Shown piece by piece: positions 565 to 30,316 of a DNA stretch of 37,648 nt. Made by a program: the position numbers and the translations under genes. The stretch comes from a virus, in IMG/VR virus record IMGVR_UViG_3300034103_000721, positions 1 to 37,648 of that record; one strand, given 5' to 3'. The notes beneath the pieces are model-generated. The model saw only the letters and a list, made by a program, of their open reading frames with translations, did no database searches and had not been told where the DNA came from. Numbering within the stretch: position 1 is the stretch's first letter; each line of letters opens with the position of its first letter.

Positions 565-600
565 CACGCAGGATCAGCGGCAGCGATGAAAGGACTCACC

Positions 601-1344
601 ATGCCTAAAGACGATGCAACGCTGTCCGCTGCATCCGCTGGTTCGCCGACGTTTCAGTTGAGGGTGCTCGATCTTTACTGCGGGGCTGGCATGGCTGCGG
701 ATGGATACGCTGCGGCTGGCTTTGCACCTACCGGCGTGGATATTTTCTTGCGGGCCTCATACCCATACGAGTTCGTGTGGGGCAGCGCATTGGCGATCTT
801 GAAGAACAGGGATTTCGTGCAACAGTTCGACCTCATCCACGCTAGCCCGCCATGCCAAGCACACACACGGGCAAAGCACTTGCGATCCGCACAAGGAGGC
901 AAGAGCCGCCACGGCGATTTCCTGACGCCGACGCTGGCCCTGCTCCGCACCTACGACATCCCCTGGATCGTGGAGAACGTGCCTGGCTCGCCTGGGATGG
1001 ACGGTGCCGTAACGGAATGTGGCTCGGCCTACGGGCTGAAGGTGCGAAGGCATCGGCTATTCCTCGCGTCGTTTCCGATTCGAGGATCGGAGTGCCGCCA
1101 CGCGGAGCAGGGAAAGCCAGTTGGCGTGTACCACGTCATGGGCGACACCTGTAAGGGCGTGTGCAAAAAGACGGGCAAGCTGGTGGTAGGCGGCAGCACG
1201 GCAAGAACGGAGGGCGAGGCCCGCGAGGCTATGGGCGTGGACCGCGACCTGTCGTGGGACGAGCTCAAGGAAGGGTTTCCGCCGGCCTACACGGAACACC
1301 TCGGGAGACAAGCGGCTGCCTACATCGGAGCAGGCCGCAAGTAG
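601..1344 (+). CDS. C5-cytosine DNA methyltransferase (phage type)
   Basis: 247 residues; the product should transfer a methyl group from SAM to C5 of cytosine in DNA. Visible motifs, in order: motif I VLDLYCGAGM (22-31, SAM binding); motif IV ASPPCQ (81-86, catalytic Cys85); motif VI ENVPG (125-129, Glu125); motif VIII-like RRHRLF (149-154); and a motif IX/X-like F-P-P-A-Y-T-E-H-L-G near residue 226. It is shorter than typical restriction-modification enzymes (300-450 aa) and the target-recognition region is small, as in other phage orphan methylases. No restriction endonuclease is adjacent. The start at 601 was chosen because AAAGGA sits 7 bases upstream; an upstream in-frame ATG at 586 overlaps that ribosome site. 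The likely role is self-protection against host restriction. Confidence 0.9.
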   Translation: MPKDDATLSAASAGSPTFQLRVLDLYCGAGMAADGYAAAGFAPTGVDIFLRASYPYEFVWGSALAILKNRDFVQQFDLIHASPPCQAHTRAKHLRSAQGGKSRHGDFLTPTLALLRTYDIPWIVENVPGSPGMDGAVTECGSAYGLKVRRHRLFLASFPIRGSECRHAEQGKPVGVYHVMGDTCKGVCKKTGKLVVGGSTARTEGEAREAMGVDRDLSWDELKEGFPPAYTEHLGRQAAAYIGAGRK

Positions 1345-4036: not shown

Positions 4037-4342
4037 TCACGCCTCCCCTAACTCGGAGAGAACACGCTGGGCGGCTGCGGAGTAGTCGCCAGATCGCAGC
4101 AAAAACTGCGATGCGATCCATTCCCTCGCCGCCTTCTCTTCGTGAAACAGACGCATGAAACTGTGAACGATCACCGCTTTGCCGTATCGCAGGTCACGCA
4201 CGACGGAGTCGCTCGGAGCCACGACAGTCACCTCGTAGAGATGGTGCCGCGGCTCGTTGCTCACAGTCCACGCGCACCACAGCCTGTCATTTTGGGCCGT
4301 GTCGCTCACATGAACCTCACCGACTACCAAGTCTCCTCGCAT
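4037..4342 (-). CDS. Small protein of unknown function
   Basis: 101 residues, unrecognised. A predicted beta-rich first half (G-D-L-V-V-G-E-V-H-V-S-D; Y-E-V-T-V-V-A-P) is followed by a helical second half (A-A-R-E-W-I-A-S-Q-F-L-L). The ATG at 4342 shares its A with the ligase stop (TGATG) and has AAAGGAG at 4355-4349, seven bases ahead. An extended start within the ligase gene is possible but unnecessary. Co-translation with the ligase is likely. Confidence 0.65.
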   Translation of the reverse strand: MRGDLVVGEVHVSDTAQNDRLWCAWTVSNEPRHHLYEVTVVAPSDSVVRDLRYGKAVIVHSFMRLFHEEKAAREWIASQFLLRSGDYSAAAQRVLSELGEA

Positions 4343-5166
4343 CACCGAACTCCTTTCGCGGAAACGAACACACACTCCTTCGCCTTCTTGTCATCGCGGA
4401 ACCCAACAGCGTTGGGGTGACGCAATGCACCGGAGGCAAACAACTGCCACCCTCGCACCTCAAGCACGCGCCCGATAAAGTGCCGTGGCCTCTTCCAAAT
4501 CGCCTCGCGTTCAACGTCGGTCCAGCCGCCGCCGACACGCACCTTCTCGATCAACTTGCCGCCCTCGTAGAGGCCACACACGACGGCACCCATGCGCCCC
4601 TTGTGCTTGCCCTCGCCGGGGAGAACGTCCATCACGACGTAGTCCATCGTGACTGTTTTCTTGACGCGACCGATGACGCCACGCTCGTAGGTGTGGAGCG
4701 TATTTCGGAAGACGAGTCCCTCGGCCCCGCCTTGCTCGACGAGCGATGCCCACGCCAACTTGTGCCGAGCCACTGGGATGGACCCTACGGCGGCGAGCCA
4801 CGGGGCCTTGCCCTCGACCTTGCGCTGGAATTGCTTCATGCGGTAGCGATAGGACATATTCCACAACTCGCCGTGGATCTCGATGGCATCGAACACGGAA
4901 AGCATCCCCTCCTCTGCGGAGTTCACTGACCGCTGCGTTCCGACGATGTATTCGCCAATCAAGATGCTCGGCGGCACGCCATCAGCGTCGAGCGTTGCCT
5001 TGAGCGCTCCCTGGCGAGAGTAGATCGAGGCGGTGCCTTGCTTGATGACGGCGCACGCCCACCATCCGTCGAGTTTGGCCTGCACGATGTCGAATAGACC
5101 CGACTCCGCAGCGTCTGCGGTCGTGTCGAAGTTGACGTATTTCTGAACTCGCTTTGCCCATTTCAT
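4342..5166 (-). CDS. ATP-dependent DNA ligase (phage type)
   Basis: 274 residues; seals nicks by an adenylated-lysine mechanism. Visible motifs: I K-L-D-G (31-34, nucleotidyl Lys31), Ia Y-S-R-Q-G (49-53), III I-G-E-Y-I (70-74), IIIa S-V-F-D-A-I (90-95), IV E-G-L-V-F-R-N (149-155) and V V-K-K-T-V-T-M-D (168-175). Residues from about 190 to 262 resemble an OB-fold ending in L-R-H-P-N-A-V-G-F-R. It lacks the large N-terminal domain of cellular ligases, as small phage ligases do. The start at 5166 is preferred over a TTG at 5238 that would add 24 non-conserved residues. It is the one clear DNA-metabolism enzyme of the leftward operon. Confidence 0.88.
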   Translation of the reverse strand: MKWAKRVQKYVNFDTTADAAESGLFDIVQAKLDGWWACAVIKQGTASIYSRQGALKATLDADGVPPSILIGEYIVGTQRSVNSAEEGMLSVFDAIEIHGELWNMSYRYRMKQFQRKVEGKAPWLAAVGSIPVARHKLAWASLVEQGGAEGLVFRNTLHTYERGVIGRVKKTVTMDYVVMDVLPGEGKHKGRMGAVVCGLYEGGKLIEKVRVGGGWTDVEREAIWKRPRHFIGRVLEVRGWQLFASGALRHPNAVGFRDDKKAKECVFVSAKGVR

Positions 5167-5234
5167 CGGTGATTCTTTCGTAGTGGGGCCAGCCACCCCG
5201 GCAGCAACGAGCCACCGGGGTGACTGACCTAGTG

Positions 5235-5585
5235 TCAAGACGCAGGGTGGACGCGGACGGCCTCACCCTTGGGACTGATCGCGAACAGCACGCCAGGCCC
5301 GTTGCCCTCGTCATCGGACGAGGCGAACAGGATGCCGCCGTCGTTGAAGTCGATGGCAACGCCGCCACCGCGGCCCTCCCAGCCCTCGCGCTTCAACTCT
5401 GCCTTGGTCATCCATCGCACGTTGATGACGGTGCGTCCGAAAGGCCACGCCACCTTGCGGTTCACGCGACGAGCCTTGCTCGATGCGTGAGCCTTCTTGG
5501 AGTAGCGGCCCATCTGAAACGCACGATCCATGATGTCCTGCAAGGCAGGGACGCCGCCCTTGACCTCGCGCACGTTACTAGCCAT
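5235..5585 (-). CDS. Protein of unknown function
   Basis: 116 residues. The start at 5585 has AGGAGG seven bases ahead and overlaps the upstream gene by eight bases (ATGGCTAG). The middle is basic (K-K-A-H-A-S-S-K-A-R-R-V-N-R-K) and the C-terminal half is beta-like with G-G-G-V-A-I-D-F-N-D-G-G-I-L-F-A-S-S-D. Not recognised. The much longer frame that extends further upstream is out of register with real coding sequence and was discarded. Confidence 0.65.
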   Translation of the reverse strand: MASNVREVKGGVPALQDIMDRAFQMGRYSKKAHASSKARRVNRKVAWPFGRTVINVRWMTKAELKREGWEGRGGGVAIDFNDGGILFASSDDEGNGPGVLFAISPKGEAVRVHPAS

Positions 5586-9650: not shown

Positions 9651-10040
9651 TCAGGCATTCTCGATCAGGGACTCGATTGCACCAACGACGCGAGCCACGG
9701 TCGGCTCGGAGTCGAGGTCGATGTACACGGTCTTGCTGCGGGGAACGTAGAAGTGCGATGCCGCTACGCTGTCTGCGTCGATGAGCGTTGCGGCACGCTT
9801 CTCGCCCCAGATCAACTCGACGGTCATCTCTCCTGCCTCCATGCTGATGATGACCTCGCTATCGGGGCCAGCCACCTCTGGAATCGAGAGCATCACGGCA
9901 CTATCGTCGCTGTCGAACTCGACGGCAGTTTCGCCTGTCAGGTCGAACGCGCCGGAATCGCGTAGCCATTCGGCAAGCGTTTCGTAGGCGACGTTCTCAT
10001 GGACGGCACGGCTCATCACGCTGCTGGAAATCGCGGACAT
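9651..10040 (-). CDS. Acidic protein of unknown function
   Basis: 129 residues from the ATG at 10040, with GAAAGGG ahead. The sequence is acidic and predicted beta-strand-rich (T-A-V-E-F-D-S-D-D-S-A-V-M-L-S-I-P; E-V-I-I-S-M-E-A-G-E-M-T-V-E-L-I-W-G), ending in an amphipathic helix. Unrecognised. Upstream in-frame codons are outside the ribosome site and were excluded. Confidence 0.65.
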   Translation of the reverse strand: MSAISSSVMSRAVHENVAYETLAEWLRDSGAFDLTGETAVEFDSDDSAVMLSIPEVAGPDSEVIISMEAGEMTVELIWGEKRAATLIDADSVAASHFYVPRSKTVYIDLDSEPTVARVVGAIESLIENA

Positions 10041-10089
10041 AGCAAACCCTTTCTGTAGGTAGAGAACACGGATCAAACAGGCAACACGA

Positions 10090-10659
10090 TCACTCGACGT
10101 TGTCGGCCAACTCGATGAACTCCATCGCACCCGGCACCTTCCAGTAGCCAGGAATCTCGTCGCCCGTGCGGAGACGCTTGAGGCTGTCGTTGGCCTTCCA
10201 GCGGGTCAGGCGGAACAGCCCATAGCAGGGCTTCCAGCGGCGGGACTCGTCGCGATACTCGATGGAGTAGTTCGCGGAGTCGAGTTGCACGATGCGATAC
10301 TCGACCTCGACCTTCTTGGGCCTCGGCTCGTTGTAGACGTATACAGCGTTGCTGAACGGTAGCGGTCGCATGTGCAGCGCCGAGCATTTGGCAACAGCGT
10401 GCCGCATCGCTGACTCGCGATCATCGTGCAAGTCATCGGGCGATAGGTAGAGTTGGCGACCCCCGGTGTTGGCCTGCACCACCACATCTCCGGTCGGGCC
10501 ATCCTGCGTGACGCGAAGATGTAAGAAAGTCACCTTGTAGGCCTTCGGGCGGACGATTCGATTTCCGCCCTTGGTGTCCTCGGTCGCGTAGGTCGCCATC
10601 CAGCACTCAGCGCCGGAGGCACGGTAGGGATTGCTGCGGATCAGTTCGACGGTCTTCAT
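10090..10659 (-). CDS. First gene of leftward operon, unknown function
   Basis: 189 residues, start preceded by GAAAGGGCAG. A mixed alpha/beta sequence with no recognised motif; visible segments include C-W-M-A-T-Y-A-T-E-D-T-K-G-G and R-R-W-K-P-C-Y-G-L-F-R-L-T-R-W-K. As the first gene it should be transcribed from the 10660-11026 control region and be early and well expressed. It could be a host-takeover protein by position, but the sequence shows nothing specific. Confidence 0.65.
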   Translation of the reverse strand: MKTVELIRSNPYRASGAECWMATYATEDTKGGNRIVRPKAYKVTFLHLRVTQDGPTGDVVVQANTGGRQLYLSPDDLHDDRESAMRHAVAKCSALHMRPLPFSNAVYVYNEPRPKKVEVEYRIVQLDSANYSIEYRDESRRWKPCYGLFRLTRWKANDSLKRLRTGDEIPGYWKVPGAMEFIELADNVE

Positions 10660-10695
10660 GGTTCTGCCCTTTCTCTAGGCGTCAATCGGCTGTGC

Positions 10696-10710
10696 CAGGA
10701 ACCATTCCTG
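10696..10710. promoter_or_regulatory. Inverted repeat, possible operator
   Basis: CAGGAA-CCA-TTCCTG is a perfect 6-3-6 inverted repeat, 37 bases upstream of the first leftward start. Its size suits a dimeric regulator, but it is short and single, so chance is possible. Confidence 0.35.
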
Positions 10711-10906
10711 ACACCCCCCTATTAGACCCGAAACGGCCCCCTGCGCCTACCCCTACCCTCCCAAGGATTCCAGGCCTAAACCCCCCTAGTGGGGGTCCAG
10801 GCATCGGAATCGCCTTTGCCAGCATCGGCTGCAGATTTTGCCGACGCACGATTTCGATGGGCCGCTTTCATGTTTGCGCGTCAGTAAAAAGTGCCGCGTT
10901 CCCCAC

Positions 10907-10935
10907 TTGTTCACGATCTGCGCGCGTGCTACGTT
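10907..10935 (+). promoter_or_regulatory. Candidate csrA promoter
   Basis: TTGTTC (10907-10912) and TACGTT (10930-10935) are 17 bases apart. Each hexamer is an imperfect match. Initiation would fall near 10942, just before the structured leader at 10949. Confidence 0.4.
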
Positions 10936-10948
10936 GTCGCCCCCAATG

Positions 10949-11020
10949 ACGCCCACTCGACGAAACGAGTGGAGCCGAAGCCCGCTACGAACGTGGGCGT
11001 CTATAGGGATGGCATGGAGG
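10949..11020 (+). promoter_or_regulatory. Structured csrA leader with GGA motifs
   Basis: Inner hairpin CCACTCG-ACGAAA-CGAGTGG (10953-10972) and outer pairing ACGCCCAC (10949-10956) with GTGGGCGT (10993-11000) share the bases 10953-10956, so they exclude one another. GGA triplets, the core of CsrA sites, occur at 10971-10973, 11007-11009 and in the ribosome site at 11017-11019. The arrangement suggests autoregulation by CsrA, as known for csrA in other bacteria. Confidence 0.5.
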
Positions 11021-11026
11021 TGGCCG

Positions 11027-11251
11027 ATGCTTGTGCTGACTCGTAAGGAAGGCGAAGCGGTAGTGATCCCGCGAGCCTTGGTTCGTGTCACTGTGACGCG
11101 GATCGACGGTAACCGTGTGAAGTTGGGTTTTGAGGCCCCATACGGATTCGATGTGTTTCGCGAAGAGTTGTTGGATGACCTGACCAGCCGGGAGTACCGG
11201 CGGGAGCCCAATCACCATCAAGTGAGGAGCAATGCCGATGAGCAGCGTTGA
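11027..11251 (+). CDS. csrA: CsrA-family RNA-binding regulator
   Basis: 74 residues. The N-terminus M-L-V-L-T-R-K-E-G-E-A-V-V-I and later V-K-L-G-F-E-A-P, then V-F-R-E-E-L, are diagnostic of CsrA. It contains the Arg6 and, in the region equivalent to Arg44, the run around Y-G-F-D-V-F-R-E that builds the RNA-binding surface of the dimer. CsrA binds GGA in leaders and blocks or stimulates translation. The start at 11027 has GGAGG six bases ahead; the frame is open further upstream but lacks conservation. Its last 14 bases overlap the exonuclease gene, so the two are co-translated. A phage copy may redirect host metabolism or time its own genes. Confidence 0.93.
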   Translation: MLVLTRKEGEAVVIPRALVRVTVTRIDGNRVKLGFEAPYGFDVFREELLDDLTSREYRREPNHHQVRSNADEQR

Positions 11252-12131
11252 GCAAGACGCACGCGCAGCATGGTTGGAAGAGAGAAAGAAGGGAATCGGC
11301 GGCAGCGATGCCCCCGCAGTGTGCAACGTAGACCCGTGGCGAGATGCTCTCGCCATTTGGTCGCAGAAGGTTGGCCTTGTCGAGGCTGAAGACCTTTCCG
11401 GCAATGAAGCCGTCGAGGCTGGCCTCGCCCTGGAAACGACCATCGGGACTTGGTACGGCCAGAAGTTTGGCAGGAAGGTGACGCTCGCGAAGCCGTATAC
11501 GATTCGACGGCATCCGGTTCACACCTTCATGTGTGCCACGCTGGACGCGACCGAAGATCGTGACGGTGAACTGGTAGTGGTGCAGATCAAGAACACCTCC
11601 TATCCCGCCGAAGCGTGGGAGGAGCAACTTCCGATGCACTACGAAATCCAGTTGCAGCACGAAATGATCGTGGCCGGTGCAAAGCGTGGGGTGCTTGTCG
11701 CTCTGCATCGCGGTCAGAACCTCCGTGCCTATGAGCGTGAACTCACGCAAGAGGCAGCGGACAGACTGATCGAGATAGAGCGCGAGTTCTGGGCGCTTGT
11801 CGAGTCGGAAACGCCGCCGCCTGCTGGGCCGCACAGTGCCGACACCGTCAAGGCCCTGTTTCCACGCAATGAGATTGACGATGTCACTGCTCTCTGCCCA
11901 GAGGCCGATGACCTCGACGCGGAGTTGCAGGAGGTCAAGGAGAAGATCGCGGCACTGTCTGACCGTCAGGTTCAGATCGAGTCGCAGATCAAGTTGTGGA
12001 TCGGAAATCACGCTGGCGGTTTGACCCCCCAAGGCGTGAGGTTTTCGTGGAAGGGGTCGGAAGTTCACTACAAGCCGCAGGAGGCCAGAACGGCCTATGT
12101 GCGGCGATTCACAAGGAGCGTCAAGAAATGA
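11238..12131 (+). CDS. YqaJ-type viral recombinase (5'-3' exonuclease)
   Basis: 297 residues. R-K-K-G-I-G-G-S-D-A near the N-terminus, G-L-A-L-E (about 64-68), then A-T-L-D-A...V-V-Q-I-K-N-T (about 101-121) and Q-L-Q-H-E-M form the lambda-exonuclease/YqaJ fold with the acidic and Lys catalytic residues of the PD-(D/E)xK nuclease. The C-terminus includes a coiled coil (about 218-255). It digests one strand at double-strand ends to give RecT a 3' overhang. The ATG at 11238 is chosen because GAGGAG is 8 bases ahead; an ATG at 11232 is only 2 bases from it. It pairs with recT by an ATGA overlap. Confidence 0.9.
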   Translation: MSSVEQDARAAWLEERKKGIGGSDAPAVCNVDPWRDALAIWSQKVGLVEAEDLSGNEAVEAGLALETTIGTWYGQKFGRKVTLAKPYTIRRHPVHTFMCATLDATEDRDGELVVVQIKNTSYPAEAWEEQLPMHYEIQLQHEMIVAGAKRGVLVALHRGQNLRAYERELTQEAADRLIEIEREFWALVESETPPPAGPHSADTVKALFPRNEIDDVTALCPEADDLDAELQEVKEKIAALSDRQVQIESQIKLWIGNHAGGLTPQGVRFSWKGSEVHYKPQEARTAYVRRFTRSVKK

Positions 12132-12946
12132 GTACCGCGATTTCCATCAAGGAGAAGGCGGCGACGGTGCGGTCGTTGATCGAGCGTAGCAGGACGCAGA
12201 TTCACGCCGCCCTTCCACGCCACATGACGGCAGAGCGGATGATCCGCGTCTGCAACACTGCTGTGCAGAAGACCCCTCAACTGCTCGACTGCGAGCCGAG
12301 GAGTCTGATCGGTGCCATCGTGCAGGCGAGCCAGTTGGGGCTGGAGCCTGACGGCACTCTGGGCCATGCCTACCTCATCCCGTTCAACAACAGGAAGAGC
12401 GGCAAGGTCGAGTGTCAGTTCATCCCCGGCTACAAGGGGCTGATCGAGTTGGCGAGGAGGTCGAGTCAGATCAGCACGATCTACGCTCAGACCGTCCATG
12501 CCAACGACGAGTGGGAGTTCTGCTTCGGCCTCGATCCGAAGTTGAGCCACACCCCTACGGACGGCGAGCCCGGCGATCTGATCGCTGTGTACGCTGTCGC
12601 TCGTCTGCGTGATGGCGGTGCGCAGTTTGAGTGGATGTGGAAGCGTCAGGTCGATGCCATTCGTTCCTCGTCCCGTGCTGGCAACAGCGGCCCGTGGGTG
12701 ACGCACTACGAGGAGATGGCAAAGAAGACGGCGTTGCGGCGGCTGTGCAAGTTGCTGCCAACGTCGCCGGAACTGACGCGAGCCGTTGCTCTCGACGAGC
12801 AGGCTGAAGCCAGTGTTCCGCAGCAGTTGGACGTTCTTGCGGACGATGATGTCTCAGTCGAGGAGGAGGCCGACACCAGCGTGGACGGTGCGACTCACGT
12901 TGGCGAGATCGTCAAGAAGATGACCGCTGCTGCCGGTGACAGGTGA
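12128..12946 (+). CDS. recT: RecT-family single-strand annealing protein
   Basis: 272 residues. Recognisable RecT features: P-R-H-M-T-A-E-R-M-I-R-V (about 28-39), S-L-I-G-A-I-V-Q-A-S-Q-L-G-L-E-P-D (59-76), L-G-H-A-Y-L-I-P-F, and C-Q-F-I-P-G-Y-K-G-L-I-E-L-A. It also has W-V-T-H-Y-E-E-M-A-K-K-T-A-L-R-R and an acidic C-terminal tail. It binds ssDNA and anneals complementary strands with the upstream exonuclease. The ATG overlaps the exonuclease stop as ATGA, and AAGGAG lies about 10 bases ahead. A longer in-frame extension is unsupported. Confidence 0.93.
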   Translation: MSTAISIKEKAATVRSLIERSRTQIHAALPRHMTAERMIRVCNTAVQKTPQLLDCEPRSLIGAIVQASQLGLEPDGTLGHAYLIPFNNRKSGKVECQFIPGYKGLIELARRSSQISTIYAQTVHANDEWEFCFGLDPKLSHTPTDGEPGDLIAVYAVARLRDGGAQFEWMWKRQVDAIRSSSRAGNSGPWVTHYEEMAKKTALRRLCKLLPTSPELTRAVALDEQAEASVPQQLDVLADDDVSVEEEADTSVDGATHVGEIVKKMTAAAGDR

Positions 12947-12957
12947 GTAACGCCGCT

Positions 12958-12989
12958 GCTGGGAGGGTGTCGCGTGATGCCCTCCCAGC
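12958..12989 (+). promoter_or_regulatory. Intergenic hairpin after recT
   Basis: Perfect 10-base stem GCTGGGAGGG (12958-12967) with CCCTCCCAGC (12980-12989) and a 12-base loop, between recT and the replication gene. No T-run follows, so partial termination or mRNA processing is possible rather than strong termination. Confidence 0.5.
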
Positions 12990-13013
12990 GCGGCAACGCA
13001 CGGAGGCTATAGC

Positions 13014-13844
13014 ATGGCAAACGTCGATTCATACATTCCGCTCTTTGGCCGCGATTTCCTGACCGCCACGATGGGTTGGACTGCGGAGGAACGCGGGCAT
13101 TACATCGTCCTGCTCATCACGCAGTGGGAGCAAGGCTCGATTCCGGCTGATCCTGGCAGGCTGGAAATGGCTTCGCCGGGTATTTCTGGGTGCTGGGAAT
13201 TGCTCTCCCAGAAGTTCCCTCCCAGCGAAGACGGCTTGAGGCGTAACAGGCGATTGGAGGAGCATCGAGCCAAGGCATCCTCCCTCTCCCAGGCCCGCGC
13301 AGAGAAAGCGGCAAGGGCTGCCAGAGCCAGATGGGGGAAGGATGCTCCAAGCATTGCTCAAGCATCTCCCCAAGCAATGCTCAAGCATGAGAACGCGGCA
13401 AGTGGCGTGAAGGGGGCGAAACAGGGCGAAGGCGCGAAACGCGAGGGAAACGCGGTTTCCGATGCTCCAAGCAATGCTCATGCAATGCGTGGAGCAATGC
13501 TTGGAGCAATGCTTGAGCAATGCCCTCCATCTCCATCTCCAATAGATAAGAAAGAAGAACTGCGTTCTTCTTCTTGCGAGAGTGGGCCGATTCCAGAGTT
13601 CGCCTGCGAGTCTGGCACTTGGAAACCCACCCGTGAGATGATCGAGGAGTGGAAAGCAACCTACCCTGACCTCGACCTCATGGCTCAACTGCGGCGAGCG
13701 AGGCAGTGGTGCATCGACAACGTGGATCGACGCAAGACCCAGAGAGGCATGCGGCGATTCATTGGTAGTTGGTTGGCGAACGTAAAGGTCTTGCCGAAGC
13801 AGACCTCGCCTAGCAAGAAGGTTTTGGCTTCATTGGAGGATTGA
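13014..13844 (+). CDS. DUF1376-type replication protein (initiator-like)
   Basis: 276 residues. Residues 5-60 (Y-I-P-L-F-G-R-D-F-L, then M-G-W-T-A-E-E-R-G-H-Y-I-V-L-L) match the DUF1376 winged-helix domain common in phage replication genes in the position of lambda O. A basic helical segment follows (A-R-A-E-K-A-A-R-A-A-R-A-R-W-G). A low-complexity linker at about 110-172 is encoded by iteron-like repeats. The C-terminal domain starts near 200 (W-K-P-T-R-E-M-I-E-E-W) and ends with R-F-I-G-S-W-L-A-N. The start is preceded by GGAGG. Role as initiator is inference from domain and context. Confidence 0.8.
   Translation: MANVDSYIPLFGRDFLTATMGWTAEERGHYIVLLITQWEQGSIPADPGRLEMASPGISGCWELLSQKFPPSEDGLRRNRRLEEHRAKASSLSQARAEKAARAARARWGKDAPSIAQASPQAMLKHENAASGVKGAKQGEGAKREGNAVSDAPSNAHAMRGAMLGAMLEQCPPSPSPIDKKEELRSSSCESGPIPEFACESGTWKPTREMIEEWKATYPDLDLMAQLRRARQWCIDNVDRRKTQRGMRRFIGSWLANVKVLPKQTSPSKKVLASLED
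13347..13524. repeat. Iteron-like repeats, candidate replication origin
   Basis: Inside the replication gene lie CCAAGCATTGCTCAAGCAT (13347-13365) and CCAAGCAATGCTCAAGCAT (13370-13388), one mismatch apart. A second cluster has AAGCAATGCTC (13469-13479), two exact tandem copies of GGAGCAATGCTT (13491-13502, 13503-13514) and a partial GAGCAATGCC. The units are near-palindromic versions of one core on both strands. Lambda carries its origin as iterons within gene O, so this is a candidate origin. Confidence 0.6.
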
Positions 13845-15558: not shown

Positions 15559-15987
15559 GTGGAGTTTGTGGCGCATGGGCCTCCAGCACCGCAGCCCCGC
15601 CCGCGCATCTCGATGAGGGGAGGGTTCGCGCGGGCCTACACGCCCGCCGACCATCCCGTCGTTGCCTTCCGGCGAGCCGTGGGTGCTGCCGCAATGCGCA
15701 AGATGACCAAGGCCGAGTGGCAGCGAAGGCTGGGAGGGCTTCGTGTCAGGATTCAAGTCTGGTGCTGTTTCGTCAGGCCGCCATCGCACCTCCTGGCGAG
15801 CGGATTGCCCAGAAAAGACGCACCGCTAATGCCTCGACCCGACACGGACAACCTTGTGAAAGCCGTGATGGATGCGCTCACGGACGCTGGCGTCTGGGAT
15901 GACGATACGGTGGTGGTCAATGAGGGTTGTCGCAAGCGATACGTCAGCGCGCGTGTCGGCGCGCACACGGTGGTGCGCGTCCGCTAG
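15559..15987 (+). CDS. rusA: RusA-family Holliday junction resolvase
   Basis: 142 residues from the GTG at 15559. The opening F-V-A-H-G-P-P-A-P-Q-P-R-P-R matches RusA's start, and the acidic catalytic set P-D-T-D-N-L-V-K (Asp95, Asp97) with D-D-D near 114-116 is intact. It cleaves four-way junctions from recombination or replication before packaging. No ribosome site precedes 15559; a GTG at 15406 would add 51 Gly/Arg-rich residues and overlap the previous gene, so coupled initiation is probable. It completes the YqaJ-RecT set. Confidence 0.85.
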   Translation: MEFVAHGPPAPQPRPRISMRGGFARAYTPADHPVVAFRRAVGAAAMRKMTKAEWQRRLGGLRVRIQVWCCFVRPPSHLLASGLPRKDAPLMPRPDTDNLVKAVMDALTDAGVWDDDTVVVNEGCRKRYVSARVGAHTVVRVR

Positions 15988-16017
15988 TTGGCGCACAGGC
16001 GCTGCGCGCGCTACACT
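15988..16017 (+). promoter_or_regulatory. Promoter of a probably leaderless mRNA
   Basis: TTGGCG (15988-15993) and TACACT (16012-16017) are 18 bases apart, directly after the resolvase stop. The -10 box ends 7 bases before the ATG at 16025, which has no ribosome site, so transcription would start at or next to the codon. Confidence 0.5.
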
Positions 16018-16024
16018 CTTCGTT

Positions 16025-17275
16025 ATGAAAGTCGAGATGCTGCCGGTCGCGGAAGTCTCTCCATACGAGAAGAATCCGCGCCGCAACGAGAAAGCCGTTG
16101 ACGCAGTCGCTGCGTCCATTCGCCAATTCGGTTGGCGTCAGCCGATTGTTGTTGACGCCAAGAAGGTCATCATCGTCGGCCACACTCGATACCTTGCCGC
16201 GCTCAAGTTGGGCGAGGAGAAGGTGCCGGTGCTGGTCGCGAAAGACCTCAAGGCAGATCAGGTCAAGGCTTACCGCATCGCAGACAACAAGACCAACGAG
16301 ATCGCAGAGTGGGACGTTGGCCTGCTGTCCGCTGAACTCAAGGCCCTCTCTGACCTAGGCTGGAATGACTTCAGCGGCCTCGCGTTCGACACTCGCGAGA
16401 TCGACGCCCTGCTGTCGCCGCTGGCCGAGAAGGTGTTTGAGGCTGATAGGCCAACGCTGGCAACCGCCACTGAGGAGCAGGCTCCAGAACTTGCTCCGGC
16501 GGTGCGAGGCGAGGAGCCAAGGAACTACCTAGAGGAAGAGGTTGAGGAGGACGATGAGCCGCAGGAGCCAGACACCTCGCAGAGCATCACGACGTACCGT
16601 GACGATGCGAAGTTCTCGTCGAGCAACTGGCTAGGCTTTCCAGACCTCCTGCCGCACATGCTGTGGGACGGAGACATTCGTCGCGTCTACATCAAGGACG
16701 AAGACACGGCACCAACGCAACTGATCGTCTGGAGCGCTGTCGGAGTTGACGAGCGCATGCGGGGCCACGTTGTCACGTTCTACGCGAGCGACGAGCGATT
16801 CGAGCATGCGATCTGGGACAAGGCCGTAGACTTCCTCGACAAGATGGCGATCATCAAACCGGGCGCTCTGGTGATGCCAGACTTCTCAACGTGGACAGAC
16901 GAGCCGACCGCGTTCAACATCTGGAACACGTTCCGCGCTCGCTGGTGCGCACGGTACTGGCAGGAGGCCGGACATAAGATCATCCCGAACGTCAACCTCT
17001 GCGACGAAGCCAGTTGGGAGTGGATCTTCCTCGGCTATCCGAAAGAGGTTCCCTGTGCGATGTTCCAGTGCCGCCAGGGCTACAACGACAACGAGAAGTC
17101 AAAGCAGACGCTCATTCGCGGACTGCACGAATGGTGCAAGCGAGTCACGACGCGAAAGATGTTTCTCTACGGAGGCGAGCATCGCGAGTGGCTTGAGCCG
17201 CATCTGCCGAAGGGGCCACAGTATGTGTGGTTCCCGTCGTACCACAAAGCAAGGAAGGACGCTGGTCTTTTCTGA
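16025..17275 (+). CDS. ParB-like nuclease domain fused to DUF4417
   Basis: 416 residues. Residues 1-95 form a ParB/sulfiredoxin-like N-terminal domain: N-P-R-R-N near 17-21, I-V-V-D, V-G-H-T-R-Y-L-A-A (51-59) containing the G-H-x-R motif, and I-A-D-N-K-T-N-E. A Glu-rich linker follows at about 150-185. Residues from about 200 to 410 match DUF4417: V-T-F-Y-A-S-D-E-R-F, P-D-F-S-T-W, I-I-P-N-V-N-L-C-D, W-I-F-L-G-Y-P, and L-Y-G-G-E-H. ParB domains in phages bind or nick DNA and often join methyltransferases; DUF4417 is uncharacterised. No ribosome site lies before the ATG. Confidence 0.85.
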   Translation: MKVEMLPVAEVSPYEKNPRRNEKAVDAVAASIRQFGWRQPIVVDAKKVIIVGHTRYLAALKLGEEKVPVLVAKDLKADQVKAYRIADNKTNEIAEWDVGLLSAELKALSDLGWNDFSGLAFDTREIDALLSPLAEKVFEADRPTLATATEEQAPELAPAVRGEEPRNYLEEEVEEDDEPQEPDTSQSITTYRDDAKFSSSNWLGFPDLLPHMLWDGDIRRVYIKDEDTAPTQLIVWSAVGVDERMRGHVVTFYASDERFEHAIWDKAVDFLDKMAIIKPGALVMPDFSTWTDEPTAFNIWNTFRARWCARYWQEAGHKIIPNVNLCDEASWEWIFLGYPKEVPCAMFQCRQGYNDNEKSKQTLIRGLHEWCKRVTTRKMFLYGGEHREWLEPHLPKGPQYVWFPSYHKARKDAGLF

Positions 17276-18058: not shown

Positions 18059-18286
18059 ATGCAAGATCCAACCTTGCCAAACGAAAAAAATGAGTCGATA
18101 AATCTGGCCTCCCTTACGCCGCAGCAAATGGCGACGATTCTTGCGAAGGCGAGCGGCGTGACGATTGACGTATGTCAAATCGAGGAAGACATCAAGGCAG
18201 GCGCTCCGGTTGACCAAGACGGGAACCTCAACATCCTTTCATACGCGGCGTGGCTTGCCAAAGACGCACAGGCGATGGGGCATTGA
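18059..18286 (+). CDS. Small HTH-like protein, small-terminase position
   Basis: 75 residues. Residues 19-67 (L-T-P-Q-Q-M-A-T-I-L-A, I-E-E-D-I-K-A-G-A-P-V, D-G-N-L-N-I-L-S-Y-A-A-W-L) form a helical, DNA-binding-like domain. A similar domain recurs at residues 8-58 of the adjacent large terminase. Its place immediately upstream of the large subunit suggests a small terminase, which recognises the packaging site. The ribosome site is weak. The stop overlaps the terminase start as TTGA. The small-terminase role is inference. Confidence 0.7.
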   Translation: MQDPTLPNEKNESINLASLTPQQMATILAKASGVTIDVCQIEEDIKAGAPVDQDGNLNILSYAAWLAKDAQAMGH

Positions 18287-20619
18287 GACTCGATCTGCAA
18301 CAACTGTCGGTGCCGGAAGCAGCGAGAGTGCTGAACAGCACGCCCGTTGGCGAGGTCATCGCGCCTCGCGTAGTGTATCGCCACCTCAACCGTGCTGGGC
18401 TAAAGATTGGCGATGGCAGGACGCTGCATCTGGTTCGCTATGCCGCCTGGCTATTTCGCGTTCGCAGCGAAGCCAAGCCAGAGCCAGGGAGCGAGCGGAG
18501 CGACTACGAGAAGGTCAAGGCCAGCGCAGCCCAACGCGCTCGCAACATATCCGAGGCTGGCCGCGATATAGCGGGCGACGATTGGGTGCGACCGGCCAAG
18601 GATCAGGCCAGAAAAGACGCGGCGACTATGGGGTTTCGTGCCTTCTGCGACTCATACTTTCCGCAGTTGTTCCATCTGCCGTGGTCAGAGGATCACCTTC
18701 GCGTCATCGCAAAGATCGAGCGAGCCGTGCTGGAAGGCGAGTTGTTTGCGATGGCAATGCCTCGCGGAAGCGGCAAGACAACGCTGTGCGAGATGGGATG
18801 CCTGTGGGCGATGATGATCGGTGCGCATGAGTTCGTCGTGCTGATTGGATCTGACGAGAGCCATGCCGCTGATATGCTCGACTCGATCAAGAGCGAACTA
18901 GAGAACAACGATCTTCTTGATGAGGATTGGTCCGAGATCACAGGCCCCATCAGAGCATTGGAGGGCATTCACCAGCGGGCCAAGGGTCAGTTGTTCAATG
19001 GTGATCGAACGCACATCGGCTGGACATCCGGCGAGGTGGTGCTGCCTACAGTCCCAGGCTCGATGGCGTCTGGCGGAATCATTCGCGTAGGCGGCATCAC
19101 TGGTCGAATCCGTGGCATGAAGTTCAAGAGGCCAGACGGTCGCAGCGTCAGGCCGTCGCTCGTGCTTGTGGACGATCCACAGACGGACGAATCGGCCAAG
19201 TCTCCGAGCCAGTGCGCGACGCGAGAGTCGATCCTCTCCGGTGCGATCCTCGGCCTCGCAGGCCCAGGCAAAAAGATCGCAGGGCTGATGACCGTCACTG
19301 TTGTGCAGCAGGACGATATGGCTGATCGCATGCTCGACCGCACCAAGCATCCAGCATGGCAGGGCGAGCGTACCAAGATGGTGTATTCGTTCCCGAAGAA
19401 CGAGGTTCTTTGGGCGAAGTATTTCGACCTCCGCAGATCCGGGCAGGCGGAAGGCACAGGGACGATGGCTGCAACGCAGTTCTATGTCGAGAACCGCGAT
19501 GCGATGGACGAAGGATCGGCAGTGTCCTGGCCCGAGCGTCACGATCCAGGCGAACTATCTGCCATCCAGCACGCGATGAACATTCGCTGCGACCGTGGAG
19601 ACAACGCCTTCTACGCGGAGTATCAGAACGAGCCTCTGCCGTCGCTCACGGATCACATGGAGGTGCTGAGCGCCGAGGTCATCAACAAGAAGCGAAACGG
19701 CTACAAGCGAGGAGTCATTCCAGCCAAGGCCACGCGACTCACGGCATTTATCGACGTTCAGCAGACGATTTTGTATTGGATGGTCTGCGCCTGGGAAGAC
19801 GATTTCAGCGGTGCGATCATCGACTACGGGACGCATCCAGAGCAGGGCCGTGCGTACTTCACGATGCGTGACGCCCAGAGAACGATCCAAGTCGAGCACC
19901 GAGAGTCTGCGTTTGAGGCCAACTTGTATGCTGCCCTGGAGCGGTGCGTCACGATGCTCTGCACTCGCGAGTACCGATTCGACGATGGTACGACGCAGCG
20001 GCTCGAGAGGATGTTTATTGACGCAAACTGGGGAGCATCGACCGACATCGTCTACCAGTTCTGCCGAGCCACGCCATTCGCCAACATCGTGCTACCCTCT
20101 CACGGCCGCTATGTCGGCGCATCGTCGCTACCCATGTCGGAATACGCGAAGCGTCTAGGCGACCGCATGGGGCCAAACTGGCGAATCCCAGGCACCGGAG
20201 GCAAGCGAGCCGTCAGGCATTGCCTGTTCGATACGAACTTCTGGAAGTCATTCGCCGTAGCACGATTCCAGACTGTGATCGGGGAGTCTGGGTGCTTGAC
20301 GCTGTTTAGCGACTACGATCACGGCCTGCTGTGCGATCACTTGCTGGCAGAGGCTCCCGTGAGAACAGAGGCTCGCGGAAGGGTTGTCGATGAGTGGAAA
20401 ACCAAGATAGTCGGCCAGGATAATCACTGGTTTGACTGCTTGGTGGGATGCTGCGTCGGAGCGTCTGTGTGCGGCGTGAGGACTGTCGGTGTCGAAGTGC
20501 AGTCAGGTCAGCGGAAGAAATACGCTGGAGGCTCTGCGGAAACAGCCAAGCCGCAAGTATCGCAGCGAAAAAGGTACGGCACGGCTGGCGTTGTGGATGA
20601 TGCGAACCTAGTCGGGTAA
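18283..20619 (+). CDS. terL: Large terminase subunit (packaging ATPase-nuclease)
   Basis: 778 residues from a TTG at 18283 (TTGA overlap); a GTG at 18250 would add 11 residues. Residues 8-58 are an HTH-like domain shared with the upstream small protein. The ATPase has Walker A M-P-R-G-S-G-K-T-T-L (159-168) and Walker B L-V-L-V-D-D-P (293-299). The nuclease half shows F-I-D-V-Q (Asp491) and M-F-I-D-A-N-W-G (Asp580), typical RNase-H-fold acidic residues. It drives DNA into proheads and cuts it. It is longer than most such subunits because of the N-terminal addition. Confidence 0.9.
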   Translation: MRLDLQQLSVPEAARVLNSTPVGEVIAPRVVYRHLNRAGLKIGDGRTLHLVRYAAWLFRVRSEAKPEPGSERSDYEKVKASAAQRARNISEAGRDIAGDDWVRPAKDQARKDAATMGFRAFCDSYFPQLFHLPWSEDHLRVIAKIERAVLEGELFAMAMPRGSGKTTLCEMGCLWAMMIGAHEFVVLIGSDESHAADMLDSIKSELENNDLLDEDWSEITGPIRALEGIHQRAKGQLFNGDRTHIGWTSGEVVLPTVPGSMASGGIIRVGGITGRIRGMKFKRPDGRSVRPSLVLVDDPQTDESAKSPSQCATRESILSGAILGLAGPGKKIAGLMTVTVVQQDDMADRMLDRTKHPAWQGERTKMVYSFPKNEVLWAKYFDLRRSGQAEGTGTMAATQFYVENRDAMDEGSAVSWPERHDPGELSAIQHAMNIRCDRGDNAFYAEYQNEPLPSLTDHMEVLSAEVINKKRNGYKRGVIPAKATRLTAFIDVQQTILYWMVCAWEDDFSGAIIDYGTHPEQGRAYFTMRDAQRTIQVEHRESAFEANLYAALERCVTMLCTREYRFDDGTTQRLERMFIDANWGASTDIVYQFCRATPFANIVLPSHGRYVGASSLPMSEYAKRLGDRMGPNWRIPGTGGKRAVRHCLFDTNFWKSFAVARFQTVIGESGCLTLFSDYDHGLLCDHLLAEAPVRTEARGRVVDEWKTKIVGQDNHWFDCLVGCCVGASVCGVRTVGVEVQSGQRKKYAGGSAETAKPQVSQRKRYGTAGVVDDANLVG

Positions 20620-25792: not shown

Positions 25793-26413
25793 ATGAGCAT
25801 TACGATCATCGGCAGCGCGTCTTCTGGCGGCGGCTCGTCCTACGACCAGAGCCTCAACACGACCGACGATGTGACCTTTGCCAGCGTGACGCTGCCCAAT
25901 AGTACGCAGATCACGGTTGGCTCGTTCGACAATCTGACCGGCGGGGCGAGCGGCATCTCGCTTCACTGCGCCGTCGGCTACGAACTGAACTGGCAGGGGG
26001 GCAGGCTCCGTAGCGTCATGCTTGGCGATGAAACGGCCGCGCCGCAGACGATCACTTTCGACTCGCCTGTCCAGTTCGTCGGCGGCGTGCTGCCGCACGT
26101 CACCACCCTCACCTACGCCGCCACCGTCACCACCGACGCCAGTGCAGGCGACATCTTCGACCTCACGCTCACCGGCAACGTGACGCTCGCTGACCCGACG
26201 AATCCGGTGGACGGCAAGACGATCCGCTGGCGGATCAAGCAAGACGGCACTGGCTCGCGGACTGTGACGCTGGGCAACAAGTTCGTCATCCCGTCGTCTG
26301 CAACTTCGCCGCTGCCGTTCAGCACGGCGGCAAACAAGATGGACATCCTCGCCGCCACCTACCACGCTGGCCGCGACAAGTGGGACATCATCGCCTTTGT
26401 GATGGGGTACTGA
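25793..26413 (+). CDS. Tail fibre-like protein
   Basis: 206 residues. N-terminal Ser/Gly-rich part with Y-D-Q-S-L-N-T-T-D-D-V-T-F-A-S-V-T-L, a recurrent phage-fibre motif, and a C-terminal beta-sandwich-like domain (D-I-F-D-L-T-L-T-G-N-V-T-L, D-G-K-T-I-R-W-R-I-K-Q-D-G-T-G-S-R-T-V-T-L-G-N). Likely surface appendage or head fibre. Placed among head genes, so a head decoration fibre is possible. Confidence 0.7.
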   Translation: MSITIIGSASSGGGSSYDQSLNTTDDVTFASVTLPNSTQITVGSFDNLTGGASGISLHCAVGYELNWQGGRLRSVMLGDETAAPQTITFDSPVQFVGGVLPHVTTLTYAATVTTDASAGDIFDLTLTGNVTLADPTNPVDGKTIRWRIKQDGTGSRTVTLGNKFVIPSSATSPLPFSTAANKMDILAATYHAGRDKWDIIAFVMGY

Positions 26414-26415
26414 CT

Positions 26416-27135
26416 ATGGCAACATTTTACTTCAACGGCGCCGACGATATTGCGAACAGCGTAGACCCGCCGGAGTGGCCGAAGCTCGGCAACTGGTGGA
26501 TGAACAGTGGATTTACCGTGCCTGCCACAGCATTGCCGACGAGTTCAGACAGCGTGGTGGCGTCGGTCGGGCTTGCCACTGACGCGCCGAGAACGGTGGT
26601 AAACTTCATAACGAACGCGCGATTTAGCGGCGACCTGACCGTTACGGGCGTTGCGACGTTCAGCGGCTATGCCAACAACGGCGGCACCATCACTGGCGAC
26701 TGCATTTTCAACGACAACTCGTATCATCATGGAGCCATTTCGGGCAACTGCATTTTCAACGACAGTTCGTGGATATCCTTCTGGGCTTCGTTCAACGGCA
26801 CCATCACTGGCAACTGCACGTTCAACGACAATTCGTACAACGGCAGCACCATCACTGGCGGCGACTGCACGTTCAACGACAATTCGGTCAACGGCGGCAC
26901 CATCACTGGCGGCGACTGCACGTTCAACGGCAATTCGAGCAACGGCGGCACCATCACTGGCGACTGCACGTTCAACGACAGTTCCTACAACCAAGGAACC
27001 GTAGCTTATGATGCGACGTTCAACGACAGTTCCTACAACCAAGGAACCGTAGCTGGCACCCGCACATTCCAAAACCGCACGCCCTATCCGATTCCGCGTG
27101 GAATCAACGGCTCATCCATTCTAGGAGTCATTTAA
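26416..27135 (+). CDS. Repeat-bearing fibre protein (predicted solenoid)
   Basis: 239 residues. After an N-terminal segment of about 85 residues come eight imperfect repeats of roughly 15-24 residues with the core G-T-I-T-G-(D/N)-C-T-F-N-D-N-S, encoded by near-identical DNA. Regular turns of this kind fold as beta-solenoids. It ends in I-P-R-G-I-N-G-S-S-I-L-G. Probably a fibre or spike shaft. The ribosome site is GATGGGG, poor, three bases after the previous stop, so coupling is likely. Confidence 0.75.
   Translation: MATFYFNGADDIANSVDPPEWPKLGNWWMNSGFTVPATALPTSSDSVVASVGLATDAPRTVVNFITNARFSGDLTVTGVATFSGYANNGGTITGDCIFNDNSYHHGAISGNCIFNDSSWISFWASFNGTITGNCTFNDNSYNGSTITGGDCTFNDNSVNGGTITGGDCTFNGNSSNGGTITGDCTFNDSSYNQGTVAYDATFNDSSYNQGTVAGTRTFQNRTPYPIPRGINGSSILGVI
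26674..27081 (+). repeat. Tandem repeats in fibre gene
   Basis: Eight tandem units of about 45-70 bases carry recurrent blocks such as GGCACCATCACTGGCGACTG and TTCAACGACAATTCG. Unit identity is highest in the middle, between about 26796 and 26995, which suggests recent slippage or recombination. Confidence 0.8.
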
Positions 27136-28595: not shown

Positions 28596-28928
28596 ATGGC
28601 AGTCACTTACACGCTCGGCAAAGACGCGACGATCAGCGGCATCAGCGGCTGCGTTCGCGATGTGACCGCCAGCATCGAGGCCAGCCGCATCGACGTTACC
28701 TGTCGAGGCGATGACAAGCGCAAATTCAAGTCCGGCCTTCGCGAAGCCACCATCGAGGTCGAGGTTCTCGATGAACCTCCGGCTGCGGGCGACGAGATCA
28801 CAATCTCTCACGCGAACAGCGGCCTCGGCGGAATCTTCATCGTGACATCTGTGGCTCGCAGCGAGCCGCTCGACGATGTCGTTTCGTACAAGATTTCCTG
28901 CAAGTATAAAGAACCCGGTGGCCCGTAG
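28596..28928 (+). CDS. Tail-tube-like protein, paralogue 1
   Basis: 110 residues. N-terminal Y-T-L-G-K-D, then a beta-rich core with A-T-I-E-V-E-V-L and near the end S-E-P-L-D-D-V-V-S-Y-K-I. This scheme (L-G-K-D, I-E-V-E-x-L, E-P-L-D) is shared with the next two genes. Placed between connector and chaperone genes, it should be a tail-tube or tube-associated protein. Start preceded by AGGAG. Confidence 0.7.
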   Translation: MAVTYTLGKDATISGISGCVRDVTASIEASRIDVTCRGDDKRKFKSGLREATIEVEVLDEPPAAGDEITISHANSGLGGIFIVTSVARSEPLDDVVSYKISCKYKEPGGP

Positions 28929-28943: not shown

Positions 28944-29255
28944 ATGGCGAAGGTTCTCGGCAAAGATGTTGTTTCCTCGATCACGGGAATCAACAACGAC
29001 AACATCATCAGCGTCACCGACACCAGCGAGTGCGAGACGATTGACATCAGCGCTCGCGGCAACGCTGGCGGCACGAACGGCTTCAAGTCGTATGCCGCAG
29101 GCTACGTTTCGCAGACCATTGAGGTCGAGTGCCTGTCGCACTCCTGCACGGTCGGCCAGCAGTTTGGCGATTTGGAGTGCATCTCCATCAGCGTCAACGA
29201 GCCGCTCGACGGCCCGGTAACGTATACCATCACGTTCGGGCCGGGCGCTGACTGA
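28944..29255 (+). CDS. Tail-tube-like protein, paralogue 2
   Basis: 103 residues. V-L-G-K-D near residues 4-8, T-I-E-V-E-C-L and N-E-P-L-D-G-P-V-T-Y-T-I. About the same length as its neighbours. An extra N-F-x-like insertion G-N-A-G-G-T-N-G-F-K-S distinguishes it. Ribosome site AGGAG ahead. Tail-tube role inferred from position and family resemblance. Confidence 0.7.
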   Translation: MAKVLGKDVVSSITGINNDNIISVTDTSECETIDISARGNAGGTNGFKSYAAGYVSQTIEVECLSHSCTVGQQFGDLECISISVNEPLDGPVTYTITFGPGAD

Positions 29256-29274: not shown

Positions 29275-29619
29275 GTGCCTGCTCTCAACATAGTTCTCGG
29301 CAAAGACTGCGTACTCACAGGCAGTCACATCGAGAACGACTACGTTCGCAATGTGTCTTATCAGCAGTCGGCAAAGACTGTTGAGTATCAGCCTTTCGGC
29401 CAGCGAGCGGTCTGCGTCCACAACGCCGGCTACGACTGCACCATCGAAGTCGAGATGCTCAAGGACACGGGAGCGCAGGCCAAGTTGCAGACCGGCGACG
29501 AAATCACGATCTCCGGTTCCGGCTATTCCGGTTCTTTCGTTATAGTCAACGTCAATCGCGATGAGCCGCTGGATGGAGCAGTCAGCGTGCGAATCACCGC
29601 GAAACTCACCTCTCTCTAG
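29275..29619 (+). CDS. Tail-tube-like protein, paralogue 3
   Basis: 114 residues from a GTG with AGGAGCG ahead. Contains I-V-L-G-K-D, T-I-E-V-E-M-L, L-Q-T-G-D-E-I-T-I-S and D-E-P-L-D-G-A-V-S-V-R-I. It shares the T/A-G-D-E-I-T-I-S string with paralogue 1, so those two may be closer relatives. Which of the three builds the tube cannot be told from sequence. Confidence 0.7.
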   Translation: MPALNIVLGKDCVLTGSHIENDYVRNVSYQQSAKTVEYQPFGQRAVCVHNAGYDCTIEVEMLKDTGAQAKLQTGDEITISGSGYSGSFVIVNVNRDEPLDGAVSVRITAKLTSL

Positions 29620-30110: not shown

Positions 30111-30316
30111 CGGCAAAGGACTCTAGGCTCGACAACGAATGGCTTCAGACCGCTTCGCTTGAGGCCCTGATAGCAAACGTCAATCGAGGCAAAGGCCAGC
30201 CGCCATACGATGTTTATCACTTCCATCCATACATGAAGAGGCCGGCGAAGACGTTGACAGCGGAAGAGTTCTTCCAGTTGTTAGGAGGTAACGGTGGCGG
30301 GCGCAGCGGCGATTAG
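29628..30316 (+). CDS. Tail assembly chaperone, frameshift product (gpGT-like)
   Basis: About 229 residues: 97 from the first frame to 29918, then 132 in the -1 frame from 29918. The -1 frame begins P-E-P-A-A, runs through a Gly/Lys linker, then S-W-W-E-L-A-Y-Q-C-A-G-I-L-G and N-P-D-E-W-T-L-R-E-L, a chaperone T-domain pattern. It ends 23 bases inside the tape-measure gene. The second frame has no start of its own with a ribosome site, which supports the frameshift. The ratio of products controls tail length in related phages. Confidence 0.8.
29896..29918 (+). other. Predicted -1 programmed frameshift site
   Basis: Heptamer T-TTT-TTC (29912-29918) reads ACT-TTT-TTC in frame 0, a canonical X-XXY-YYZ slip site. 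AGGAGG at 29896-29901 lies 10 bases upstream, the distance at which internal Shine-Dalgarno sequences stimulate -1 shifting, as in E. coli dnaX. Confidence 0.75.

Follow-up and report, generated by a model that had tools for sequence, protein, structure and literature searches.

CsrA proteins carried by phages and plasmids

Phage-encoded CsrA is already known. Thirty csrA-bearing phages were listed in 2020 (Sobrero and Valverde, PMC7366521) and further csrA/rsmA examples were described among the IMG/VR phages (Campa et al. 2021, PMC8450108). In the Pseudomonas phages phi297, D14P and F116, csrA lies upstream of exonuclease and recombination genes, as it does in the DNA analysed here. Published evidence on the role of these phage proteins goes little beyond a plaque-size result: knock-down of the phage csrA homologue PTXU04_00028 by CRISPRi-ART gave small plaques, in another phage and another host, and the mechanism was not studied there (PMC11879866). 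RsmQ, encoded by plasmid pQBR103, recognises ANGGA within hairpin loops, and the proteins it alters number in the hundreds for the host but only a few for the plasmid (PMC9928087). Like the protein described below, it is a CsrA of a mobile element, but it belongs to a Pseudomonas plasmid and has a VHRE motif with His; the sections of that report cited here do not mention a multi-hairpin leader. In E. coli, CsrA inhibits translation of its own mRNA via four leader sites, one of them over the Shine-Dalgarno sequence (PMC7652899).

The stretch analysed (hereafter the window) is the 37,648 nucleotides of IMG/VR virus record IMGVR_UViG_3300034103_000721. What is new in it and its relatives is the very probable planctomycete setting and a leader of GGA hairpins upstream of csrA. 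In the part of the literature that was searched, no phage csrA leader of this kind was found and almost nothing was said on planctomycete csrA. Among the phage csrA leaders that were checked (Vibrio, Providencia, Xanthomonas), none was as GGA-rich as those of two relatives of the window.

The csrA gene, its operon and its origin

The csrA ORF runs from ATG to TGA and encodes a 74-amino-acid CsrA. The protein was matched by the PF02599 profile at 60.1 bits (2e-16; curated cut-off 27), by PHROG 9500 ('CsrA-like regulator') at 1.3e-11 and by solved CsrA/RsmE chains at 3e-7 to 5e-7 (e.g. 2jpp, 5e-7). The same gene was found at the same place, with 81-85% identity, in three relative contigs from two distinct lineages: IMGVR_3300042946_000505 (G002), IMGVR_3300042541_001248 (G003) and IMGVR_3300042937_000976 (G004, of the same lineage as G003, the sequences matching over the regions compared). 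Another contig, G001, agrees with the window upstream of csrA and is 100% identical through csrA, exo and recT. Comparisons were made between three lineages, represented by the window, G002 and G003. The csrA ORF is a real gene and not a chance ORF, and the complete CsrA announced by an earlier sequence-only reading is upheld.

csrA is followed by exonuclease, recT and primosomal-like genes (Table 1), then by genes for a DUF3310 protein and RusA. The exonuclease start is conserved at ATG 11238, with 11232 also in frame, and in each of the three lineages the gene overlaps csrA by 14 bp; because this start lies inside the end of csrA, translational coupling of the two genes is likely. The gene order of the sequence-only reading, with csrA overlapping the exonuclease gene and ahead of recT and the replication genes, was therefore confirmed and its overlap refined. 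Terminase, portal and capsid genes lie on the same contig, in the same order in relatives; csrA is within a phage genome and is not host contamination. No sigma-70 consensus promoter was found by promoter scan, and the conserved TACGTT is not a consensus match.

Table 1. Features of the csrA leader and operon in the window.
Feature	Position	Strand	Remark
TTGTTC	10907-10912	+	17 bp upstream of TACGTT
-10-like hexamer TACGTT	10930-10935	+	conserved across the three aligned lineages as TACG[TC]T
Outer inverted repeat GACGCCCAC/GUGGGCGUC	10948-11001	+	competes with hairpins 1 and 2
Leader hairpin 1 (CCACUCG-ACGAAA-CGAGUGG)	10953-10972	+	
Leader hairpin 2 (GCCCGC-UACGAAC-GUGGGC)	10980-10998	+	
Remaining ANGGA site AGGGA	11005-11009	+	
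Remaining ANGGA site AUGGA	11014-11018	+	overlaps Shine-Dalgarno GGAGG 11016-11020
csrA	11027-11251	+	first gene of recombination/replication operon
YqaJ/RecE-like exonuclease gene	11238-12131	+	Pfam/PHROG matches
RecT-like annealing protein gene	12128-12946	+	Pfam/PHROG matches
Primosomal/replication-initiation-like protein gene	13014-13844	+	phrog_3992, 2e-10

Of 294 Planctomycetota genomes, 39 contained relatives of the terminase (18250-20619), at up to 62% identity over ~740 amino acids. IMG/VR yielded at least 538 stretches with terminase relatives; identity to isolated phages was at most ~27% among those listed. The window phage belongs to a large planctomycete-linked phage family to which isolated phages are only distantly related. 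From this terminase kinship, the host is very probably a planctomycete. Several other genes of the window were recorded. A divergent cytosine DNA methyltransferase-like protein is encoded at 586-1344 (+), an ATP-dependent DNA ligase at 4342-5238 (-) and a ParB_N domain fused to DUF4417 at 15872-17275; for the latter, BLAST matched only a 130-170-amino-acid stretch in many csrA-less relatives. The protein at 26380-27135 is built of repeated GGTITGDCTFNGNS-like units. Three tandem proteins of ~110 amino acids (28596-28928, 28944-29255 and 29275-29619), apparent paralogues of one another, sit between the structural genes and a long tape-measure-like ORF (30294-33275).

csrA matches were present in all 77 sampled Pirellulales genomes, at 2-13 each and mostly several (6 in G005). 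In a tree of 52 CsrA rows and few columns, the window clade grouped with one Pirellulales paralogue and one alphaproteobacterial copy (95/93). The known phage CsrA/RsmA proteins, which like that of the window are encoded by a short CsrA-family gene in a tailed phage, fell with gammaproteobacterial CsrA in a separate group (97/97). The phylogeny advised by the sequence-only reading thus points to an acquisition separate from that of the gammaproteobacterial-type phage copies. The nearest planctomycete CsrA was only 42-44% identical (profile search, 392 genomes). RecT in planctomycete genomes reached at most 47% identity, and a search for prophages on the genome contigs with RecT found nothing.

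The residues equivalent to L4, R6 and R44 (R45 in the phage protein) are invariant across the phage CsrA alignment and the V42-equivalent is also kept; L4 and R44 have been named as critical CsrA residues (PMC7652899). The sequence-only reading had been staked on the RNA-binding residues. These three are intact, and the H43-equivalent is F, the VHRE/D motif reading VFRE. His is also missing at this position in several Pirellulales paralogues and in many planctomycete family members, so H43 is usual, not universal, and does not define the CsrA family as a whole. Between the window, G002 and G003, the CsrA core (codons 1-50) had a dN/dS of 0.025-0.055. The corresponding values were 0.08-0.14 (exo), 0.10-0.12 (recT) and, where dS was computable, ~0.2 for the gene that follows. 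Among the proteins of the operon, constraint is strongest on the CsrA core. This low dN/dS is evidence that CsrA functions and says nothing on which function. The phage-borne CsrA appears to be a functional protein of planctomycete type, and its family and residues suggest that it binds RNA.

The leader of csrA

Upstream of csrA, conservation was poor until TACG[TC]T, which is followed by a ~60-nt ungapped block common to the three lineages. The G002 leader contains 8 ANGGA sites in 125 nt, the maximum of its contig (next best place on that strand, 4), and the density never rose above 6 per 125 nt in 200 Markov genomes. The G003 and G004 leaders contain 6 sites each, likewise the maximum of their contigs. 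In minimum-energy folds, the G002 and G003 leaders form four hairpins with ANGGA in all four loops, including the Shine-Dalgarno one; none of 1000 dinucleotide shuffles of either leader gave this result. The loop of hairpin 1 contains AUGGA in the relatives and that of hairpin 2 contains AAGGAUG; loop 2 (AAGGAUGU) is identical to the final eight bases of RUACARGGAUGU, the SELEX consensus for CsrA. Paired changes were seen in hairpin 1 (A-U to C-G), in hairpin 3 (U-A to G-C, G002 vs G003, by hand from the alignment) and in the outer inverted repeat (one U-A to C-G, G002 vs window), the latter being broken in G003. Covariation in the leader is slight; it comes from three sequences with a single two-sided change, and the signal falls within the range of the shuffles.

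The G002 and G003 leaders share the layout of the E. coli csrA leader, with four sites, one of them at the Shine-Dalgarno sequence, and GGA in loops. The phage leader belongs to a phage operon and has no sequence or Rfam relation to the E. coli leader or to CsrB/RsmZ-type RNAs. Covariance models of the CsrB/RsmX/RsmZ-type families gave no match at E<=1 in stretches L003, L004 and window 9800-13200. A sliding fold scan covered G002, G003 and the window, each on both strands. The maxima of G002 and G003 were at the csrA leader, nothing comparable was found in the window, and none of the three contigs showed a separate CsrB-like locus. Among the csrA-less relatives, the leader element had weak matches only (best 18.7 bits vs 77-86); the best, L130, was by eye an ordinary GC-rich hairpin. 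Outside the clade, a broader DNA-pattern search for hairpin 2 gave nothing but chance matches. Inheritance from host csrA genes was rejected, the leaders of 36 Pirellulales csrA genes holding at most 3 ANGGA. An N-terminal extension or leader peptide was also rejected: substitutions between the window and G002 are even over codon positions (5, 6, 7; hand count), and in G003 the reading frame differs and has stops.

In the window, stems 1 and 2 are kept in register, but there is no hairpin 3. CGAA stands at each of the three NGGA positions of the block (loop 1, linker and loop 2; 10948-11007), so that, unlike the E. coli csrA leader, this lineage has no loop GGAs. The only two ANGGA sites of its leader are near the Shine-Dalgarno sequence and none is in the main hairpins, and the local minimum-energy fold contained no clear Shine-Dalgarno hairpin with ANGGA in its loop. 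The multi-site leader with one site over the Shine-Dalgarno sequence is present in G002, G003 and G004 (6-8 ANGGA); the window has two. As the RNA-binding residues are unchanged in the window, the protein does not suggest a change of specificity. The terminase tree does not resolve the branching order of the three lineages, and either GGA or CGAA may be the ancestral state.

Proposed regulation and targets of the phage CsrA

The sequence-only reading had proposed that a phage CsrA could time phage genes after transcription, by repressing or activating their mRNAs, or redirect the host. At 41 hand-curated phage starts (-30 to +10), ANGGA occurred 0.29 times per start vs 0.16 inside genes. With the Shine-Dalgarno sequences masked the excess was gone (0.07 vs 0.09 per 40 nt inside genes), and it was also absent from whole-contig counts, made with a crude gene finder and csrA itself left out (window, 0.53 vs 0.47; G002, 0.56 vs 0.56). 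Phage genes are therefore not evident targets, the exception being the leader of csrA itself in two relatives. Broad CsrA control of phage genes was rejected and general timing is unsupported; although csrA is first in the early operon and coupling could extend its effect to exo, we consider such timing improbable. Redirection of the host fared better: it is made plausible by the kept key residues and by the plaque-size and RsmQ precedents (PMC11879866, PMC9928087).

The E. coli-like layout, the lack of enrichment at phage starts and these two precedents favour an autoregulated phage CsrA aimed mainly at host transcripts, to which we assign a probability of about 0.5. The gene, its context, its constraint, its residues and the leader sites with their statistics form the basis of this reading; from them we infer binding, autoregulation, coupling and host targets. 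CsrA would be the first product of the recombination/replication operon. Its dimer would bind ANGGA in RNA hairpin loops and would act mainly on transcripts of the planctomycete host. CsrA would also limit its own synthesis by binding its own leader, the high-affinity upstream hairpins tethering the dimer, which would then cover the Shine-Dalgarno sequence according to the scheme of glgC and E. coli csrA. As the exonuclease start is inside csrA, this binding would damp exonuclease translation too, through coupling. In the window phage the upstream hairpins are without GGA, which would leave control, in a weaker form, to the two Shine-Dalgarno sites. Against this reading count the mere two ANGGA sites of the window leader, its local fold without a clear ANGGA-loop hairpin at the Shine-Dalgarno sequence, the thin covariation and the F at H43.

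The leader could instead be a decoy, a CsrB-like sponge which titrates host CsrAs under strong early transcription while the phage CsrA replaces or outcompetes them. An early operon that begins with four ANGGA-loop hairpins has a CsrB-like layout, Pirellulales genomes hold several csrA copies that could be titrated, and a separate CsrB-like locus was not found on these contigs. However, the leader is physically joined to csrA, a better fit to cis control, it is without GGA loops in the window and it has no CsrB/RsmX-type match in Rfam; we regard a decoy as unlikely. It is also improbable that CsrA and its leader form a compact Csr circuit, the leader being at once autoregulator and sponge for host CsrAs, and that its three NGGA/CGAA motifs changed together between the lineages because a different binder took over the circuit in that of the window. 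Repression of CRISPR-Cas by RsmA has been proposed for phage RsmA (Campa et al., PMC8450108). By analogy, a CsrA made from the early operon might lower host immunity, for instance through CRISPR-Cas mRNAs, but nothing in the window points to defence and we hold this to be quite improbable.

Attenuation or antitermination unrelated to CsrA, with csrA merely the first gene, would account for the stems kept in the window though GGA is absent, and for the competition between outer and inner helices. It is very unlikely given that all four loops are exact CsrA sites in two lineages, that the csrA-less relatives have no strong match to the element and that no terminator-like site was found. The gene might finally be a neutral passenger of the exo-recT module. 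In the window and all its csrA-bearing relatives, csrA is accompanied by exo-recT; both are missing from 27 terminase relatives that have 7.5 kb or more of upstream sequence and from 20 planctomycete prophage regions (several short). The dN/dS of the CsrA core, below that of exo and recT, makes a neutral passenger extremely improbable.

For the autoregulated CsrA favoured here, the leader is a built-in readout. Some relatives keep its CsrA sites whereas another has them altered, which makes autoregulation testable with simple reporters. The locus also extends the range of Csr elements to phages that very probably infect planctomycetes, whose genomes are rich in csrA paralogues.
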